DNA from: a virus
DNA length: 35,709 nucleotides
Virus record (IMG/VR): IMGVR_UViG_3300025313_000073
Location: 1 to 35,709 of that record
Reading direction: 5' to 3' (one strand)
Below, piece after piece: positions 2,191 through 35,709 of the stretch. The first letter of the stretch is position 1, and each line of letters begins with the position of its first letter. Both the position numbers and the translations under genes were made by a program. The notes below the pieces were generated by a model. It ran no database searches, was not told the origin of the DNA, and saw nothing but the letters and a program-made list of their open reading frames with translations.

Positions 2191-2219
2191 TTGACCCTGG
2201 GTTGTTAGCGTCCTATAAT
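2191..2219 (+). promoter_or_regulatory. Sigma-70 promoter for the structured RNA
   Basis: TTGACC at 2191-2196 and TATAAT at 2214-2219 are separated by exactly 17 bases. The expected transcription start is G at about 2226, three bases before the first arm of the RNA closing stem. This is one of the best matches to the bacterial housekeeping promoter that I see in the window, so the RNA is probably made by the unmodified host polymerase, early or in lysogeny. Confidence 0.75.
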
Positions 2220-2225
2220 TAATAT

Positions 2226-2377
2226 GGCGTAGGATGTTTGTCGGGGGGAGGACAGTTATGAAATGGACTGTCAGGATCGTGAGTAAGCTGATTAGTCTCA
2301 GTAGCGGAACGATCTAATGACGCCTGACTAGCGAAAGGTGGCGAAAACGTACCACCCTCCCCCGACAAACGTCCTAC
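2226..2377 (+). ncRNA. Highly structured RNA with long closing stem (novel candidate)
   Basis: Arms at 2229-2247 and 2359-2377 pair over 19 positions with one G-U pair. A bulged G2248 and two more pairs (2249-2250 with 2357-2358) follow. Inside lie four hairpins: 2251-2256/2267-2272; 2274-2280/2309-2315 with an inner stem 2288-2291/2298-2301; a weak 2321-2323/2331-2333; and 2337-2343/2348-2356 with an AAAA loop and a two-base bulge. The first and last hairpins abut the closing stem with no unpaired base, forming a compact multi-helix junction. The RNA begins at a near-consensus promoter. I cannot match it to 6S RNA, tmRNA, RNase P, a riboswitch or phi29 pRNA by sequence. It could be a free small RNA or a fold-back mRNA, since the closing stem masks a Shine-Dalgarno site before a 19-codon frame. 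Confidence 0.65.
2258..2317 (+). CDS. Possible 19-residue peptide inside the structured RNA
   Basis: ATG at 2258 is preceded by GGGGGAGGA with correct spacing, and the frame runs 19 codons to TAA at 2315. The peptide begins MKWTVRIVSKLISL, a basic start followed by an amphipathic or hydrophobic stretch. The Shine-Dalgarno site is the G-rich part of the closing stem (2243-2251) and would be blocked by CCUCCCCC at 2356-2363. Such long-range masking is known from hok-type type I toxin mRNAs. There is no proof of translation; the open frame may be chance within a structural RNA. Confidence 0.25.
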   Translation: MKWTVRIVSKLISLSSGTI

Positions 2378-2380
2378 AGT

Positions 2381-2403
2381 TTCTGGTACTTGCATTGCCA
2401 GAA
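2381..2403 (+). terminator. Small hairpin after the structured RNA
   Basis: TTCTGG and CCAGAA pair perfectly around an 11-base loop directly 3' of the closing stem. There is no T-run right after it; the nearest is seven T at 2432-2438. It could be a weak terminator or the 3' domain of the RNA. Confidence 0.3.
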
Positions 2404-2464: not shown

Positions 2465-2827
2465 ATGTTACGACGTGATTTATTTAAGTTTCTGGCGGGC
2501 GGGGTGGTGGCGGTCGTGGTACGCACCATTCTTCCTGAGAGTTCACCCAAGGAGAGTTCGAACAGGATAAAGGTGGATTGGGAACATGGGCTTGCGGCGG
2601 ATTACAATGTTCCTATGAGTGCCTCGGATGAAGTGGTTAGGATATGGTGGGATGGCGCAGGTTTCGTAGGGCGTCCTGAGTCTGCTGTGCGAGTCCTTTC
2701 AGACCTAGAGACCGCCAGGGACAAGGCCAGGATGGTAGTTGTCGAGGAGTTGGAAAAGTGTCTATGGGGCGATCTTCCCCAGGACGCCAAGGATGCGTGG
2801 ACAATTAAACGCTGGGGGCCGGTTTGA
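2465..2827 (+). CDS. Hypothetical exported protein with Tat-like signal
   Basis: This encodes a 120-residue protein. The N-terminus MLRRDLFKFLAGGVVAVVV resembles a twin-arginine signal: paired arginines, then D-L-F-K-F, then a hydrophobic stretch. The rest is a soluble domain with many charged residues (about 30-120) that I do not recognise. I chose ATG 2465 over TTG 2447 because GAGGAGG (2452-2458) sits at the right distance. It is the first gene after the structured RNA and starts a run of small exported, membrane and zinc-binding proteins. A plain membrane anchor rather than a Tat signal is equally possible. Confidence 0.6.
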   Translation: MLRRDLFKFLAGGVVAVVVRTILPESSPKESSNRIKVDWEHGLAADYNVPMSASDEVVRIWWDGAGFVGRPESAVRVLSDLETARDKARMVVVEELEKCLWGDLPQDAKDAWTIKRWGPV

Positions 2828-3355: not shown

Positions 3356-3816
3356 AACCTGCATGTATAATTGTAATGTTAATTGTCTTGGGTGCGGCGG
3401 CCTCTGTTGGGTTTACCAAGCCCAAGTCTGCGCAAGGGGATATTTCCATTCCCTTTGAGGAGATCGGGTTGTTCGACCCATTGCCAGCAGAAGTGGCGGA
3501 CGCGCCGCCAGAATTTAGGTTTAAGTGGATTCGTGCCTATAATGAAATGGCCGTACTTCAGGCCCAACGCAGGGCCGATGCGTATCGTGCGAGTAACCCC
3601 GTCCTGGAGGTGTACACCCAAGACCAAGAGTACGTGTCAGGAAGCTCGTTGAACCAACAAGCAAGTGGCGACTACAACAGCGCTCAGCTACAGGCACGGA
3701 CGCAAACCACTTACCAAGGACGTAATGTGCAACGGACGTACAGGCCAGATCAGTGGGGTGGGGGTCCCGTAACAATTCTCAACCCGTATACCGAAGTGGA
3801 GGTGGAACATGAGTAA
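3352..3816 (+). CDS. Hypothetical exported protein
   Basis: This encodes 154 residues. Residues 1-21 form a typical signal peptide or anchor ([14 protein letters not shown]), followed by a soluble region with an early amphipathic helix ([19 protein letters not shown]) and a Gln/Tyr/Asn-rich tail. It overlaps the upstream gene by ATGA and the collagen-like gene by eight bases. Because both it and its downstream partner carry export signals, they may act together at the cell envelope. The family is unknown. Confidence 0.6.
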
Positions 3817-4435
3817 AAGAATGGTATTTGTACTGATCTTTGTGGGAACAATTGTGTTATACTTTGGGTTACGGTCGGCATTTGGACACGAGAACGGTGC
3901 CGACCCGCACTCTACCCAAAATGGCAATGGCCATGCAAACCACCATGGATGGGGATTTGGGCACCACGGCGGGCTTACAGGCGGCCCGCCGAATCCTCCA
4001 GGCCCTCCGGGAGATCCTGGCCCCCCAGGCAATCCTGGTCCGCCAGGAACTCCTGGCTCTCCTGGCTCTCCTGGCTCTCCTGGCTCTCCTGGCTCTCCTG
4101 GCTCGCCGGGGGCACCGGGGGCACCGGGGGCACCGGGGGCACCGGGGGCACCGGGGGCACCGGGGGCACCGGGGGCACCGGGGGCACCGGGGGCACAAGG
4201 TAATTCGAATGGTTCGAATTCTTCGAATAGTTCAAGTAGTTCCAGTAGCACAAGCAGTTATGTTAGTGGAGGTTGGTATGTTCAGTCTAGGTCTATGTAC
4301 TGGACGATCCCGTGGTATTCACCAGTGGTTACCCCTTACCCTCTACCAACGATAGTGCCCCCTAGGGGCAAGCCTGGGGTCGATCTTCCCAACTCCTCTT
4401 TCTCTTTCTCTGGTACCGTCTACACTTTTGAATAG
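3809..4435 (+). CDS. Collagen-like protein with N-terminal membrane anchor or signal
   Basis: This encodes 208 residues. Residues 5-20 are hydrophobic after M-S-K-R and should export or anchor the protein. A His/Gly-rich segment follows (about 27-52), then some 25 Gly-X-Y collagen triplets, first GPP/GNP types, then six GSP and nine GAP with a final GAQ. A Ser/Asn-rich linker (about 135-152) leads to a Trp/Tyr/Pro-rich C-terminal part. Collagen repeats are common in phage fibres, but those lack signal peptides; this protein looks made for the host surface. It sits in the run of exported small proteins rather than among virion genes. The repeat part is internally duplicated at DNA level. Confidence 0.75.
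4055..4198. repeat. Nine-base tandem repeats encoding collagen triplets
   Basis: Five GGCTCTCCT units and one GGCTCGCCG are followed by nine GGGGCACCG-phase units and a final variant ending in CAA. Identity at third positions shows recent expansion. Because units are nine bases, copy-number change would alter rod length without shifting the frame. Assembly from short reads could have miscounted them. Confidence 0.9.
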
Positions 4436-6227: not shown

Positions 6228-7537
6228 ATTCGGATTTTCAGGATCAGTTTGTCCGGTGGCATGAGAATTTCGAGGAGGAAGTGTCTCCGAAATGGCCCTC
6301 GTTGGATAGAATCTGGGTAGGCGACTTCGAATTTTATCAGCCACCCGGCGCCCGTCAATCACCGCATTGTTGTGTCTTTCGTAACTTGGGGCGTGACATT
6401 GAGGTCAATGGGGTCCCCCACGGAATTCTCACCTCGGATGATATCTTTGTCTTTTACTACGCGCCGGCCGACCTCGGATGCTACCTAGCTCTTGAGGTCC
6501 CTCTTCCTCGATATGTGGTTGATCTGTATGCAGAATTCAGGAATCTTACCAACGGGGGGCGCAAAGATCGAGGGGAGGGGTTGTATGATGCCATGGACTA
6601 TTACCACATTCCTCACGCCACAAAAGAAAATAAAGCGGGGATGCACGACCTTGCTACGAAAGCCGCCCACTTATCTGACGAGGAAACGGCCCTCTTACTT
6701 AAGTATTGTGCTGATGACGTAAAGTGTACCAGCGCTCTGTTCGAGACTATGTTGCCATTGATGAATCTGCCGCAGGCCCTCCTCCGTGGGCGTTATACCA
6801 AAGCCGTGGCGAGAATGGAGGCCGTGGGAGTTCCTATAGATGCTCTGGGGTTGGGTGAGATTCGAGCTAGTCGCGTCTATTTGCAGCACAAGTTGATTGA
6901 TCGTATTGATGACCAATACCATATCTATAATAAAGGTGTTTTCAAACAAAAAGCATTCACCACATGGGTTAATGATAATCAATTGCCATGGCCGAGGTTG
7001 AAAAGTGGGAAAGTGGCCTTGGACAAGGGAACATTCGATTATATGAGTGAAGCGTATCCGATTGTTGAGCCTATAGCCGAGTTACGTCAAACCTTGGGCA
7101 CCATTAGGAACGAGAGTCTGTCAGTAGGTCAGGATAATCGTAATCGGTGCATGTTATCCCCGTTTCGTTCACAGACGGGAAGAAACCAGCCGTCTAACTC
7201 TAAATTCATTTTCGGGCAAAGCGCCTGGATGCGACACTTGATTCGACCGGAACCGGGGCAGGCCCTGGCGTATTTGGATTGGGAGCAACAGGAGTTTGCT
7301 ATTGCGGCGGCTCTATCTAAAGATAGTCGTATGATGGAGTCTTACCTGTCCGGCGATCCGTATTTGTATTTTGCAAAGATTGCCTACAATCTACCTGAGA
7401 CCGCCAAGAAGACAGACCCAGATGTGTCAGAGAAGCGGGATCGCTGTAAGCAGTGCATCTTGGCGGTTCAGTATGGCTTGGGGGTGCGGTCTTTGGCCAA
7501 CAGGTTGGCTATTGAAGCTAAGAGGCGGCCTATTTGA
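6224..7537 (+). CDS. Family A DNA polymerase, N-terminal part (exonuclease and first palm/finger part), frameshifted
   Basis: The product replicates phage DNA. The 3'-5' exonuclease domain has D-F-E-F (codons from 6323; Exo I) and Y-C-A-D-D-V (Exo III). The polymerase domain follows, with motif A as Y-L-D-W-E-Q-Q-E-F-A-I-A and motif B as R-D-R-C-K-Q-C-I-L-A-V-Q-Y-G. The frame then stops at 7535-7537, before motif C, which continues in another frame. The start is uncertain: TTG 6224 overlaps the preceding stop, while ATG 6035 would add 63 residues that do not look like polymerase. Family members usually have all motifs in one chain, so this is a frameshift, a true split enzyme or a sequence error. 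Confidence 0.8.
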   Translation: MNSDFQDQFVRWHENFEEEVSPKWPSLDRIWVGDFEFYQPPGARQSPHCCVFRNLGRDIEVNGVPHGILTSDDIFVFYYAPADLGCYLALEVPLPRYVVDLYAEFRNLTNGGRKDRGEGLYDAMDYYHIPHATKENKAGMHDLATKAAHLSDEETALLLKYCADDVKCTSALFETMLPLMNLPQALLRGRYTKAVARMEAVGVPIDALGLGEIRASRVYLQHKLIDRIDDQYHIYNKGVFKQKAFTTWVNDNQLPWPRLKSGKVALDKGTFDYMSEAYPIVEPIAELRQTLGTIRNESLSVGQDNRNRCMLSPFRSQTGRNQPSNSKFIFGQSAWMRHLIRPEPGQALAYLDWEQQEFAIAAALSKDSRMMESYLSGDPYLYFAKIAYNLPETAKKTDPDVSEKRDRCKQCILAVQYGLGVRSLANRLAIEAKRRPI

Positions 7538-8007
7538 TGTACCTTCATCGATCCACCTATCGAGACTACTGGCTGTGGTCTCAATGGGCTATTCGTTTTG
7601 GCCTTATGACCAAGAGTATTCATACTGTCTTTGGGTGGAATCTGACAGTGTCTAGGGGCACTGGGCTGCGGAGTGTTATGAACTTCCCAATGCAAGCCAA
7701 TGGGGCGGAAATGCTTCGTCTTGGGTGTTGTTATCTTACCGAAGAAGGAATTGATGTGTGTGCGCCGGTACACGATGCGGTATTGATCGCAGCCCCCCTC
7801 GACCATATCTCCAGTACGGTGGTCAGGGCTCAACGCCTTATGGAACGGGCGAGCCTTGACGTACTGGAAAACCTGACCGTGCGCACCGAAGCTAAAATCA
7901 TACGATATCCTGATACATACATACAGGCTAAAGGGCAAGGTACATGGGAAGAAGTACAGAAAATGCTGAAGGACAAGGAAAATGAAGATAACAAGAAAGC
8001 CAGGTAG
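7522..8007 (+). CDS. Family A DNA polymerase, C-terminal part (fingers/palm motif C), frameshifted
   Basis: The frame opens right after TAA at 7519-7521 and reads E-A-A-Y-L-M-Y-L-H-R-S-T-Y-R-D-Y-W, the sequence expected to follow motif B in family A polymerases. Further on come R-S-V-M-N-F-P-M-Q-A-N-G-A and motif C as A-P-V-H-D-A-V-L-I, where HD supplies the metal-binding aspartate. The frame is one position back (-1) from the upstream part and fits loss of one base near 7519-7524. Separate translation could begin at ATG 7537 with AGAGGCGG upstream. No classic slippery heptamer is visible. The end overlaps the next gene. Confidence 0.75.
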   Translation, partial: EAAYLMYLHRSTYRDYWLWSQWAIRFGLMTKSIHTVFGWNLTVSRGTGLRSVMNFPMQANGAEMLRLGCCYLTEEGIDVCAPVHDAVLIAAPLDHISSTVVRAQRLMERASLDVLENLTVRTEAKIIRYPDTYIQAKGQGTWEEVQKMLKDKENEDNKKAR

Positions 8008-8437
8008 GCCTGTCAACAAACGTGCAAACTGTCATCATCCGCTTTATGCTTCGTGGAGGTCTCATAGAGCTAGAGGTAACCTATTGACAACGACTTTCCG
8101 GGAGTTTTTAGACAGGGTGGCCCTCGCTGGCTGGCGCCCTGATGTTGGGTATCGGGTGTTTGTTGACCCCTTGACCGAAGAGATTACTGTCTATAAAGCC
8201 ATCCACGACTTTGCGGAGTATCGGTTGTGGATTCGTATGATGTCCGAGGGGTCGGTGGGTGGAAAGTCTACAGTGTGCGTTGCTTGGCACGATTTCTTTG
8301 AGTTTCGGGAATGGGTACTATCTTTTTATTTGGATGGAAAAATAGATTTTACCAACAAGTCGGTAAAGGTAGCCCGTCAAGACTCGTTGCGTTTTTTTAA
8401 CCCAGCTAACAGTTTCCTAACTTATGGTGTCCAATGA
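7982..8437 (+). CDS. Hypothetical protein with H-P-L-Y-x-x-W motif
   Basis: This encodes 151 residues. ATG 7982 lies inside the end of the polymerase frame and is preceded by AAGGACAAGG. The N-terminus is basic (K-I-T-R-K-P-G-R-P-V-N-K-R), then C-H-H-P-L-Y-A-S-W-R-S, a signature seen near the start of many phage HNH/AP2-type nucleases, but no HNH core (paired Cys or His-Asn-His) follows. It may be a degenerate or catalytically dead relative that binds DNA. The central part is aromatic and charged. It is coupled to the sigma-like gene by ATGA. Confidence 0.55.
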   Translation: MKITRKPGRPVNKRANCHHPLYASWRSHRARGNLLTTTFREFLDRVALAGWRPDVGYRVFVDPLTEEITVYKAIHDFAEYRLWIRMMSEGSVGGKSTVCVAWHDFFEFREWVLSFYLDGKIDFTNKSVKVARQDSLRFFNPANSFLTYGVQ

Positions 8438-9180
8438 CTTATTTTGAGTGCCCGGAATTTTTTTCTCCAGAGGGGGTGGCATCTATCTTTGGCCCACTTC
8501 CTGGGGAGTTGCGGTGGCCAAAAACTCATAGTACCTTGGTTCGCAATCCCACGCTCAGTAAATATGCGCACCAACCTTTGTTAACTATGGGCCAAGAGTA
8601 TCACCTGTTTAGGAAATACAATTACTGTAAGTTTGCGGACAGGGACGAGGAAGTTATAGGGTTGCGAAATGAGCTTGTGAGGTATAATTATCGTCTGGTT
8701 ATCTCTTTATGGTCCAATTATAACCGGCGGGCGGAATTGTTTGATGATTACATACAGCGCGGGGTATTGACGTTGATACGTTGTGTGGATGGATTTGATT
8801 ACCGGAGAGGTTATAAGTTTGTGACCTATGCATACAAATCGCTGCGGTGTACCTTGACCGACCAAGATCGGGAAAATTGTAAGTATTATAGAAGATTTGA
8901 GGGATTATCGCAACTTACAGCTGGGTGGGTTGAGGATTATCGCGAAAATTGTCATAATACTAATAGGGACCCTGTGGTGATTTCCGCCATTTGTCGGGCT
9001 ATTAAGGCTTTGCCGGAGAGAATGCAGGAAACACTAAGGTTTAGGTTTTGGGAGGGGTTGACGTATTCCGAAATTGGTAGGCGGCGGGGGGTGACCAAGC
9101 AAGCGGCAGCATTGGCTGTAAAGTTCGCCATAAATCGAGTTGGCCGCAGCCCAGAAATGAAGAGAATAAGGGAGTGCTAA
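8434..9180 (+). CDS. Sigma-70-like RNA polymerase factor
   Basis: This encodes 248 residues. Residues 43-62 resemble the region 1.2 helix (K-Y-A-H-Q-P-L-L-T-M-G-Q-E). Residues 78-142 match region 2: L-R-N-E-L-V-R-Y-N-Y-R-L-V, then D-D-Y-I-Q-R-G, then Y-K-F-V-T-Y-A-Y-K-S-L-R. Residues 190-236 match region 4: A-L-P-E-R-M-Q-E-T-L, then L-T-Y-S-E-I-G-R-R-R-G-V-T-K-Q-A as the helix-turn-helix. There is no recognisable region 3. It would redirect host RNA polymerase to phage promoters. It is adjacent to, and one base overlapping, a second, more diverged sigma-like gene. Confidence 0.75.
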   Translation: MTYFECPEFFSPEGVASIFGPLPGELRWPKTHSTLVRNPTLSKYAHQPLLTMGQEYHLFRKYNYCKFADRDEEVIGLRNELVRYNYRLVISLWSNYNRRAELFDDYIQRGVLTLIRCVDGFDYRRGYKFVTYAYKSLRCTLTDQDRENCKYYRRFEGLSQLTAGWVEDYRENCHNTNRDPVVISAICRAIKALPERMQETLRFRFWEGLTYSEIGRRRGVTKQAAALAVKFAINRVGRSPEMKRIREC

Positions 9181-9839
9181 TGACGGGTATGGACCCCCAG
9201 ATGTTTGAGCAATGGCGGCATTTGGTTGAGCATATTGTTGGGCATAATTTTGAGTGGGCATACCGGGCTGGGGCCGCGTCAGTTGACGGACGGCGAGTGT
9301 CTAGGTTGTTGGAGCGAGAGGATTTGCTGCAAGAAGGGCGTTTGGCGCTGCTGGAAGCGTGGCGAGACTATAAGACAGATCATATTAAACAGGCTAAGTT
9401 CATAACGTATGCGTATACCTGTATTTATTGGACGGTGTTCAAATTTGTGTGTAATAATTTGTCTCCAGTTTCTATGCGAGGATGGCAAAAAGATTTTCAT
9501 AGCTCTAATGCGGCCCATAGAGGCAGGTTCGTGGCGGCCTTGGCGTGCCATCTTTTTAGTGAAACTGACGGGGAGGACGCTGTGGTTCTCCAAGGAGAGT
9601 CCATTGTAGACTATCGAGAGAACGAGTTGTCAGATTTTGAAGATCACTGTTTGGAAAAATTGCGGGCCAATCTTCTAGAATGGGAAGTGGAGGCCCTGCT
9701 GTTGCGGTTTAACGGAAACACCTACTCTCATATTGGGCAATACCTTGAATGCTCAAGAGAGACTGCCAGGAAGATAGTGGGAAACATGCTTATTGAGGCG
9801 AAAATGGTATTAAAAGAGGAGAGCCATGACAAGTTCTAG
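9180..9839 (+). CDS. Second, diverged sigma-70-like factor
   Basis: This encodes 219 residues from ATG 9180, with AAGGGAG upstream; it overlaps the previous stop by one base (TAATG). Residues 46-92 resemble region 2 (R-E-D-L-L-Q-E-G-R-L-A-L-L-E-A-W, then F-I-T-Y-A-Y-T-C-I-Y-W). The C-terminal 45 residues before the tail resemble region 4 (E-W-E-V-E-A-L-L-L-R-F, T-Y-S-H-I-G-Q-Y-L-E-C-S-R-E-T-A). Similarity to the upstream factor is low apart from this layout. It may be a separate late factor, or a partner that works with the first protein. Confidence 0.65.
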   Translation: MTGMDPQMFEQWRHLVEHIVGHNFEWAYRAGAASVDGRRVSRLLEREDLLQEGRLALLEAWRDYKTDHIKQAKFITYAYTCIYWTVFKFVCNNLSPVSMRGWQKDFHSSNAAHRGRFVAALACHLFSETDGEDAVVLQGESIVDYRENELSDFEDHCLEKLRANLLEWEVEALLLRFNGNTYSHIGQYLECSRETARKIVGNMLIEAKMVLKEESHDKF

Positions 9840-11532: not shown

Positions 11533-11539
11533 GGTATTC

Positions 11540-11610
11540 GCCCTGTTCGACTTCTGGGAGGTCATCAGCCCCGCAAGCTGATTAGGAGAGTTCGACTCTC
11601 TCACTGGGTG
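11540..11610 (+). tRNA. tRNA-like cloverleaf (degenerate tRNA or attachment-site tRNA copy)
   Basis: A complete cloverleaf can be drawn. The acceptor stem is GCCCTGT with ACTGGGT (one G-U, one U-U mismatch). The D-arm is GACT/GGTC with a seven-base loop containing GGG. The anticodon arm is TCAGC/GCTGA with loop CCCGCAA. Four variable bases follow, then the T-arm GAGAG/CTCTC with the consensus loop TTCGACT, and discriminator G. CCA is not encoded (TTG follows). The anticodon would be CGC, but position 33 is C instead of the invariant U, and alanine identity G3-U70 is absent. It is therefore a diverged tRNA, a decoy, or a tRNA segment kept for integration near the integrase gene. Confidence 0.5.
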
Positions 11611-11623
11611 TTGAGGTGGTAAT

Positions 11624-33982: not shown

Positions 33983-34641
33983 TGGCACAAGCTAATCCAT
34001 ATTTGTCTAGAATACTTAAACTCCAAGAAAACCTTCGACAACAAACCTTGGCACCAGGGGAGGCTAGATATACAGACATACTAGGCCAGTACAAAACCTT
34101 AGCCGGCACCACCTCCAGTGCCCTCGGGCAAGTGCCTGGCATGTACCAGAACCTAGCAGACGCCTACGGGCGCCGCGCTGAGGACTTTCGTGGAGATATA
34201 GAGGGCGGGGGCGCCATACAGCGAGAGGAGCTGGCTAGACGAGAACAACAACAACTTGGGGAGCTAAATGCAAGACAAGGTGGTCTGGCCGGATCTTATG
34301 TGGCGGGCCTATCCAGAGGTATACGCAGCGATGCGGCCTTTAATCAAATGCGTCTAGAAGAATCTCTACGCCAACAGCGCCTTGGATATCTCTCCAAACT
34401 CACTGGAGAACAACTCGCAGCCCAGGGAATGGTCCCACAAGCGACGGCACAAACCGCTTTGCAACAAATGCAAGTGGGAGAAAGACCGTTACAATTCGAA
34501 GCGAGCAAACAGGACCAAGGGTTTGGATCGCAATATACACAAACTTACGGCAAGTTGGCGGACCTCCTAGGCCAACAGGCCAATATTGGAACCGGAGGTC
34601 TTTATAAACCATACGGAACCGTATCCAGTCTTAGGCAATAA
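33982..34641 (+). CDS. Gln/Ala-rich helical protein, possibly internal virion protein
   Basis: This encodes 219 residues, coupled to the adaptor by TAATG. It is almost wholly helical with many Gln, Arg and Leu (R-I-L-K-L-Q-E-N-L-R-Q-Q; R-R-E-Q-Q-Q-L-G-E-L-N-A-R-Q-G-G-L), and small Gly-rich breaks. This composition is common in injected internal proteins of short-tailed phages. No enzyme motif, such as a transglycosylase or amidase site, is visible. Confidence 0.5.
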   Translation: MAQANPYLSRILKLQENLRQQTLAPGEARYTDILGQYKTLAGTTSSALGQVPGMYQNLADAYGRRAEDFRGDIEGGGAIQREELARREQQQLGELNARQGGLAGSYVAGLSRGIRSDAAFNQMRLEESLRQQRLGYLSKLTGEQLAAQGMVPQATAQTALQQMQVGERPLQFEASKQDQGFGSQYTQTYGKLADLLGQQANIGTGGLYKPYGTVSSLRQ

Positions 34642-34643
34642 TC

Positions 34644-35279
34644 ATGGCCTTTCCATTAACCAAAGGTTACAAATCAACCGTTGGTCAAGTACCAGGAATG
34701 TCCTTACTAGCAAGGGCCTTTATGGGACCGCCTGGCCCAAGGCCTATCAATTGGGACCGGGCTGGCCAGGGTTCCCAACAACAGGCGCAACCCAGTCCCC
34801 AGTTAACTGGCTTAGGGGGCGCTCCGTCTCTAGATTCTTACCAACAGTCACAAGGCCGGCCGCAATTGCGATCCCAACCACAAGGTGCAGCCCCAACTAC
34901 AACCCTGACTGGCATTGCTCCGGTCGAAGGGGGTACCCCCCCACCTACCATGGGGTCTTTGGGTTCTTTATCCGGCCCTGGTGTTACGATGCCCCAGGTC
35001 AGTATTGGTGGAGTAGGCACGGGGGGTGACGGCTCTACTGATGGAAGTAGTGGCGGTGTAGTGGGCAGTGGCGGTGGAGTGGGCAGTGGGGGAGGAGGGG
35101 GCATATCCTATGACCCAGCTGTCGTTGCACGCATTAAAGCCGAATCTGCGGAGAGAATGCTGCGGAGTCAATTAGACTTGCAGTCAGCCAGGGATGCACA
35201 AGCACAGAGGAATTTAGAACACCAATTTCGATGGGGAGCCGGTGGAGGAAGTGGAAAGCGTGGCGGATTCCCCCAATGA
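34644..35279 (+). CDS. Gly/Pro/Gln-rich virion-type protein
   Basis: This encodes 211 residues. The first 25 residues repeat a phrase from the preceding protein (V-G-Q-V-P-G-M versus L-G-Q-V-P-G-M). Long disordered Pro/Gln and Gly/Ser runs follow (G-S-G-G-G-V-G-S-G-G-G-G-G), then a short helix (R-I-K-A-E-S-A-E-R-M-L-R-S-Q) and a basic Gly-rich tail. The last 15-20 codons coincide with the point where composition changes, so the true C-terminus may be lost or replaced. Confidence 0.5.
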   Translation: MAFPLTKGYKSTVGQVPGMSLLARAFMGPPGPRPINWDRAGQGSQQQAQPSPQLTGLGGAPSLDSYQQSQGRPQLRSQPQGAAPTTTLTGIAPVEGGTPPPTMGSLGSLSGPGVTMPQVSIGGVGTGGDGSTDGSSGGVVGSGGGVGSGGGGGISYDPAVVARIKAESAERMLRSQLDLQSARDAQAQRNLEHQFRWGAGGGSGKRGGFPQ

Positions 35280-35709
35280 AGCCGCCTGGGAGCCCGAAGC
35301 GCCGATTGAATCGCCCGTGGCCGAGAGTGAAGTCGAGCCGATCGTTTCGGACCTCGACAGCCGCGAGTGGCCGACCTGGATCGCCGATGAGCCTCCAGGA
35401 GCCACCGACACAATCGTTACCTGGCTGGACAGCCAGGGACGCAAGCCGGCCCGGCCCACGCGGCAGGAAGTCCCGGATTGGATGTCGGACATCCCGGCGG
35501 CACCTGAAGAGCCGAGTCCTCTCGCCCCGGCGACCGGCCTTGAAGCCTCCAAGGAAGTGACCCCTGCCCGCGGTATCGGGCGCAAGCCACTTGAGAAGCC
35601 CTCCGTTCCCGCCGGGACCACGTCCGGACCTGGCGCTCCAGGCTGGCTGGCCGCAGTGGCCGAAGCTGCCGCCCGCGAGGAGACCACACCCGAGCCGGCG
35701 GCGCCGCCA
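35218..35709 (+). CDS. GC-rich open frame running off the right end (partial; non-phage-like)
   Basis: The frame is open from 35218 to the last base (164 codons) with strong GC at third positions, unlike the phage genes. The product is Pro/Glu/Ala-rich and contains W-P-T-W-I, V-P-D-W-M-S-D-I and P-G-W-L-A-A-V, spaced like the P-D-W-L motifs I associate with large Chloroflexota proteins. It overlaps the end of the phage gene in another frame, so the junction lies somewhere in 35220-35281. It has no start codon of its own and is the middle of a gene, consistent with host flank or a chimeric join. Confidence 0.5.

Follow-up and report, generated by a model that had tools for sequence, protein, structure and literature searches.

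In phage HK022, the putL site lies just 3' of its early promoter, and put sites are described as elements of about 70 nt with two stem-loops, present in two copies (PMC9378689). The put RNA suppresses both pausing and termination through the zinc-binding domain of the RNA polymerase beta' subunit. The type I toxin mRNAs hok and AapA are described as hiding the ribosome sites of their small frames through paired 5' and 3' ends, and in AapA3 the hiding is attributed to a long-distance interaction between the two ends (PMC6733600). Kissing of loops through four pairs is described for the pRNA of phi29 (PMC7357161). Finally, GOLLD and ROOL are presented as ornate phage RNAs without assigned function, many GOLLD members being longer than 800 nt and both RNAs often being found near tRNA islands (PMC12286853).

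The element reported here was found in a phage record of 35,709 bases from an environmental sample (IMG/VR IMGVR_UViG_3300025313_000073), which was analyzed over its whole length and is called the window below. It shares with put the character of a structured RNA at the front of what would be an early phage transcript, and it likewise lies 3' of a promoter-like site. It differs in being a five-way fold of 149 nt (2229-2377), sealed by a stem of 19-21 bp, with one model match in the single near-identical record; judged by the size and the two stem-loops given in the description of put, it is not a member of that family. We tentatively regard it as a new structured phage leader, outside the put, pRNA, type I toxin and ornate-RNA families, an assignment that we rate as plausible and somewhat short of probable. 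The features of the locus are collected in Table 1.

Table 1. Predicted features of the element and of its surroundings (window positions).
Feature	Position	Strand	Details
Sigma70-type promoter-like site TTGACC-N17-TATAAT	2191..2219	+	11/12 consensus match; spacer 17 nt
-35 box TTGACC	2191..2196	+	
-10 box TATAAT	2214..2219	+	
Likely transcription start	2226	+	from promoter spacing, 7 nt past the -10 box
Closing stem P1, 5' arm	2229..2250	+	2229-2247 with 2359-2377, 19 pairs including U2235-G2371; bulged G2248; then 2 pairs, A2249-U2358 and G2250-C2357
Closing stem P1, 3' arm	2357..2377	+	fold prediction
Ribosome site GGAGG	2247..2251	+	sequence; within P1/P2
Hairpin P2	2251..2272	+	2251-2257/2266-2272, 7 bp, loop ATGAAATG
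19-codon frame	2258..2317	+	candidate coding; ATG in the P2 loop, stop UAA (2315-2317) at the P3 end; product MKWTVRIVSKLISLSSGTI
Hairpin P3	2274..2315	+	7+2+5 bp, hexaloop TTAGTC (2292-2297)
Hairpin P4	2321..2333	+	2321-2323/2331-2333, 3 bp, loop CTGACTA (2324-2330)
Hairpin P5	2337..2356	+	2337-2343/2348-2356, 5+2 bp, loop AAAA
First downstream gene	2465..2827	+	120 aa, begins MLRRDLFKFLAGG, own GAGGAGG at 2452-2458

The promoter and the 19-pair stem with its single G-U pair, its bulge and its two further pairs had been proposed in the original prediction, and both were recovered at the positions of Table 1. The four inner hairpins that it had counted were predicted as well, P4 with its three pairs being the weakest part of the fold. 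The proposal that the helices abut holds at P1/P2 and P5/P1 (0 nt) and at P2/P3 (1 nt), and does not hold at P3/P4 and P4/P5, where spacers of 5 and 3 nt intervene. Comparison with shuffled sequences also bore out the original prediction, with z between -7.7 and -7.9 and no shuffle equally stable. A 191-nt region reached a minimum free energy of -80.7 kcal/mol, against -51.5 (sd 3.8) for shuffles (z -7.74, 0/200 as stable), and the core reached -70.3 (z -7.78, 0/200), a repeat run giving z -7.92 (0/300). The interior alone (2251-2356) is itself structured (-32.0 against -23.0, z -2.9, 5 of 1000 shuffles as good).

Comparisons along the genome used the window together with G001:34000-60418, G001 being the related record (IMGVR_UViG_3300025325_000023, 60,418 bases); the two pieces have 1,255 identical bases in common. 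Over this sequence, P1 is the longest inverted repeat with at least 90% complementarity and arms at most 250 nt apart. One longer and poorer arm pair was found, of 36 nt and 81%, at L007:5861-5984. In a G+C-corrected comparison of 8,214 windows, each of 180 nt and taken from either strand, the element came ninth; the places above it go to a collagen-like repeat (3961-4200) and one A+T-rich hairpin (L007:5819-6043). In a coarser scan, with windows of 160 nt moved by 40 nt, ninth place went to the - strand window 2230-2389, whereas the + strand of the element was absent from the first 40, as each of its windows cut the element. The A+T-rich imperfect hairpin of G001 (L007:5853-5985), with its 36-nt arms, lies between a primase-like gene and a short twin-arginine-like frame. 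The collagen-like protein is encoded at window 3809-4435 (PF01391, 9.5e-16), where a tandem array of the 9-base unit GGGGGCACC is found.

The promoter-like site is preceded immediately by an A/T-rich tract (2177-2190), and the start expected from its spacing falls 3 nt ahead of the stem. As only three 11/12 promoter matches exist in the whole window on both strands (2191+, 2824+ and 1504-), the placement of one of them right before the stem is unlikely to be due to chance. The element lies inside the largest gap of the gene list (845 nt, 1620-2464), which divides the leftward frames (180-1619) from the rightward frames (2465 on). Two operator-like palindromes were observed in this divergent control region, TGTGTATC-GTTAT-GATACACA at 1927-1947 and GTGTCA-N6-TGACAC at 1978-1995, as well as a G-run, GGGGGAGGGGTGGGGGAGGGG (2068-2088), which is a G-quadruplex motif and lies about 100 nt 5' of the promoter.

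Such a setting could also point to an element that works as DNA, belonging to a replication origin or forming a cruciform to which protein binds. In addition to the gap, the G-quadruplex-capable G-run and the A/T-rich tract, this reading is favoured by the good folding of both DNA strands when single-stranded (z -6.7 and -6.5). As RNA, the - strand folds almost as significantly as the + strand (-63.4 kcal/mol, z -7.62, against -70.3, z -7.78), with an interior at z -2.5 (17 of 1000 shuffles), and this near-equality leaves room for DNA-level readings. However, the sign of the GC skew does not change across 2.2 kb, no exact TTATNCACA DnaA box was found in the window, and the direct repeats in 1600-2230 are two-copy only. 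Also, U2235-G2371 pairs in the + strand RNA only, the corresponding T-G position disfavours a perfect cruciform, and the promoter is directed into the stem. A DNA-level role is accordingly rated as quite unlikely, and it is simpler to assume an RNA transcribed from the promoter.

The original prediction had further noted a hidden ribosome site. As sequence this site is present, with GGAGG followed by 6 nt and ATG, and it is predicted to be locked by the stem, the opening of GGAGG costing 8.4 kcal/mol in 2226-2500 and 5.4 in 2226-2355, where the 3' arm is lacking. When 2226-2377 was shuffled 5000 times, 1.0% of the products had a comparable ribosome site with such a spacing, start codon and frame; for 2226-2464, shuffled 2000 times, the share was 2.3%. 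The element could be a fold-back mRNA from which the peptide is translated only once the stem joining the 5' and 3' ends has been opened or trimmed, in the manner of hok and AapA, or the frame could encode a leader peptide by which translation and folding are coupled. The likeness to these toxin mRNAs, as far as they are described in the source cited above, lies in the paired ends, since here too a distant 3' segment is predicted to conceal the ribosome site that serves the short frame. The 19-aa peptide has a charge of +3 and a helical moment of 0.44, which 4.3% of shuffles reach. On the other hand, its moment at the strand angle is ordinary (reached by 25% of shuffles), and its GRAVY of 0.69 is modest compared with that of membrane toxins. 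The locus also differs from hok and AapA in that no antisense promoter of at least 9/12 was found near the element, with just two 8/12 sites within 2191-2560, and no terminator-like site at its 3' end (2377). Such a peptide mRNA appears unlikely, a shade less so than the DNA-level element.

An independent RNA gene had been one of the two readings in the original prediction. Its promoter-like site is present, but a terminator scan of 2230-2465 revealed no intrinsic-terminator-like site, so that, barring processing or another kind of termination, the transcript should continue into gene 2465. The independent gene is therefore unproven and slightly disfavoured. A second promoter-like site, TTGACA-17-TATAGT, is located at 2824, at the end of gene 2465; the first promoter would thus most directly serve the element and this 120-aa gene. 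The gene product matched no PHROG or Pfam family, and no NCBIfam family at cut-off. By eye its start is twin-arginine-like, and TIGR01409 gave no match.

If the element acts in trans as a structured RNA of its own, some 150 nt long, it would have to be released by cleavage at the base of P1 or by termination of a non-intrinsic kind. The P3 loop UUAGUC and the P4 loop CUGACUA could form five Watson-Crick pairs, and these would either close such an RNA upon itself or link its copies in a head-to-tail fashion, as in the phi29 pRNA, a phage RNA whose loops are able to kiss in the account cited above. The closed 5'/3' helix, the multi-branched shape, the promoter-like site of its own and the lack of an Rfam match all agree with this reading. 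Against it stand the missing terminator-like site at 2377 and the lack of any homologue found; moreover, an equal loop match is obtained in 4.4% of loop-letter shuffles and P4 has only three pairs, so that the predicted loop contact is suggestive only. The ends of the phi29 pRNA are paired, and phi29-like phages have protein-primed replication and a gp16-type ATPase. The phage described here instead encodes a DNA polymerase of family A and the large subunit of a terminase (phrog_2), and is not of the phi29 type. It also encodes a 1743-aa virion protein. We consider a trans-acting RNA unlikely, if worth keeping in view. Improbable, in turn, is its more specific form, a novel class of small phage RNA that would be cut from the leader at the 19-21 bp stem, would use its two kissing loops for folding or for assembly, and would act in trans on the host or on the virion.

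In our view the most economical reading is that the element acts in cis, as a structured leader at the 5' end of the rightward transcript, a reading that we favour with reserve and would not yet call probable. It is consistent with the z-scores, the self-structured interior, the near-consensus promoter, the better folding of the + strand RNA, the position in the largest gap between divergent frames with operator-like palindromes, and the lack of a terminator-like site before 2465. The comparable significance of the - strand fold speaks against it, as does the single match in G001, whereas HK022 has a copy for each of its two early operons. The promoter-like site, the fold beyond chance, the locking of the ribosome site and the lack of an intrinsic-terminator-like site are shown by sequence and prediction, while transcription as such and each functional step of the leader model are inferred. 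RNA polymerase with a sigma70-type factor would begin at about 2226, and the nascent RNA would shut into a multi-branched module sealed by the stem, transcription continuing past the module into gene 2465. The most likely job of the leader would be the control of the rightward transcript from its front end. The sealed 5' end might give resistance to decay, and a stem as long as this one might be cut by RNase III; alternatively, the RNA might fold while being made and influence RNA polymerase in the way known from put of HK022. The sequence does not choose between mRNA protection, RNase III processing and a put-like action. The locking of the ribosome site of the 19-codon frame would be a by-product of the fold. 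A further point against the leader reading concerns a simple switch, in which the 3' arm, once freed, would cover the ribosome site ahead of gene 2465; such pairing was tested for and is not predicted (probability 0.0). The arm pairs with G-rich codons of gene 2465 in the blocked folds, where the mean accessibility of the site falls from 0.56 to 0.32.

The original prediction had also called the element unlike any family that it could name, and the Rfam search agrees with this view. Rfam 15 covariance models gave no match at the gathering threshold over the whole window, and up to E 10 two matches in 2100-2500, one of 13.6 bits (threshold 50) and one of 10.4 bits (threshold 34). ROOL is several times longer than 149 nt. 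The element resembles GOLLD and ROOL as an ornate phage RNA, and it differs from them by its size, by the lack of an Rfam match and by its distance from the only tRNA gene found, a tRNA-Ala (CGC) gene at 11539-11611, 9 kb away.

For homologue searches a covariance model, R1, was built from the one sequence, which limits its reach. Against 50 records it matched G001 only, and only once, so that no second copy was found there (the 38 loci L058-L095 lay outside this search). It matched none of 28 loci, none of two further loci, and none of 294 genomes from the phylum of a Planctomycetaceae MAG, the latter under stricter filters and with no positive control. Among 6 genomes R1 had one match (E 0.0017), which was rejected, as its alignment shows a G+C-rich repeat. 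In IMG/VR, the P3/P4 loop pattern was found in G001 only. With an 18-mer from P4/P5, two matches besides G001 were obtained there, neither of which fits R1; on a rough estimate assuming tens of gigabases, these two are not surprising. The P1 arm pattern also had two others, which are G+C-rich, gave no R1 match and were rejected, their folds on the two strands reaching z -2.5/-2.4 and -4.9/-4.5. The element is thus known from one phage, and closer relatives may exist elsewhere in metagenomes. The lack of relatives and the single phage are what a stable fold without function would also give; however, the shuffles, the separately structured interior and the placement of the promoter make chance very improbable.

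G001, the sole relative found, begins at the same base as the window, is near-identical to it across the compared parts (window 1-25036 and 34001-35255) and carries the element without any change. The blastn match to G001 ends at 35255, close to a glycine-rich coding repeat, and the mismatch over the remaining window (35256-35709) is possibly an assembly or repeat difference. A DNA similarity search gave no match for the phage among 50,697 phage records or 72,556 plasmids. Every protein queried matched phage records at less than 60% identity or not at all, the numbers of records matched being 152 for the polymerase, 117 for the terminase, 15 for the primase-like protein, 9 for the virion protein and 0 for the portal-like protein. 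Single-protein scans of IMG/VR with the polymerase, the product of gene 2465 and the terminase returned G001 only. With a polymerase alignment, four distant relatives besides G001 were recovered from IMG/VR (25-30% identity), as well as 22 loci in bacterial and archaeal genomes, with best segments up to 59%. A virion-protein alignment recovered at least 79 loci, with identity of at most 35% among the matches listed, G001 not being among them. A comparison of 27 loci (L009-L013, L097-L118) with the genes of the window and of G001 gave matches for the polymerase and the virion protein and for no other gene, and therefore the element is not expected in these loci. Judged by sequence comparison, the phage is a lineage without close relative in the collections searched.

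Other features of this phage were observed. A frame change at 7520-7540, with a TGATG stop/start overlap, divides the gene of DNA polymerase A into parts of 500 and 157 aa, and G001 is near-identical in this region; the two parts share one frame in 20 of 20 genome loci that have both, a putative continuity taken from match coordinates. Two adjacent, overlapping genes at 8434-9839 each hold sigma-70-like regions. In G001, at about 55.1 kb, L007:7108-7293 encodes a TatA homologue (PF02416, 49.5 bits against a cut-off of 21, 2.4e-13), which with the tatAE model scored 51.0 bits, slightly below the cut-off of 53.9. Directly 3' of it, L007:7293-7724 and L007:7672-8094 encode small proteins with twin-arginine-type starts, of which one reached 16.9 bits with TIGR01409 against a cut-off of 16.7 and another 14.7. 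In a limited literature search nothing on a phage-borne TatA was evident.

The element is compact, has a clear promoter-like site and yields crisp predictions, namely a closed stem, a locked small frame and a loop contact. It is therefore a well-defined candidate, with a fold far beyond chance and a functional role that is a reasoned guess. Phages of uncultivated hosts may use structured leaders of this kind, each known from one genome, and scans for families may miss such leaders for that very reason.
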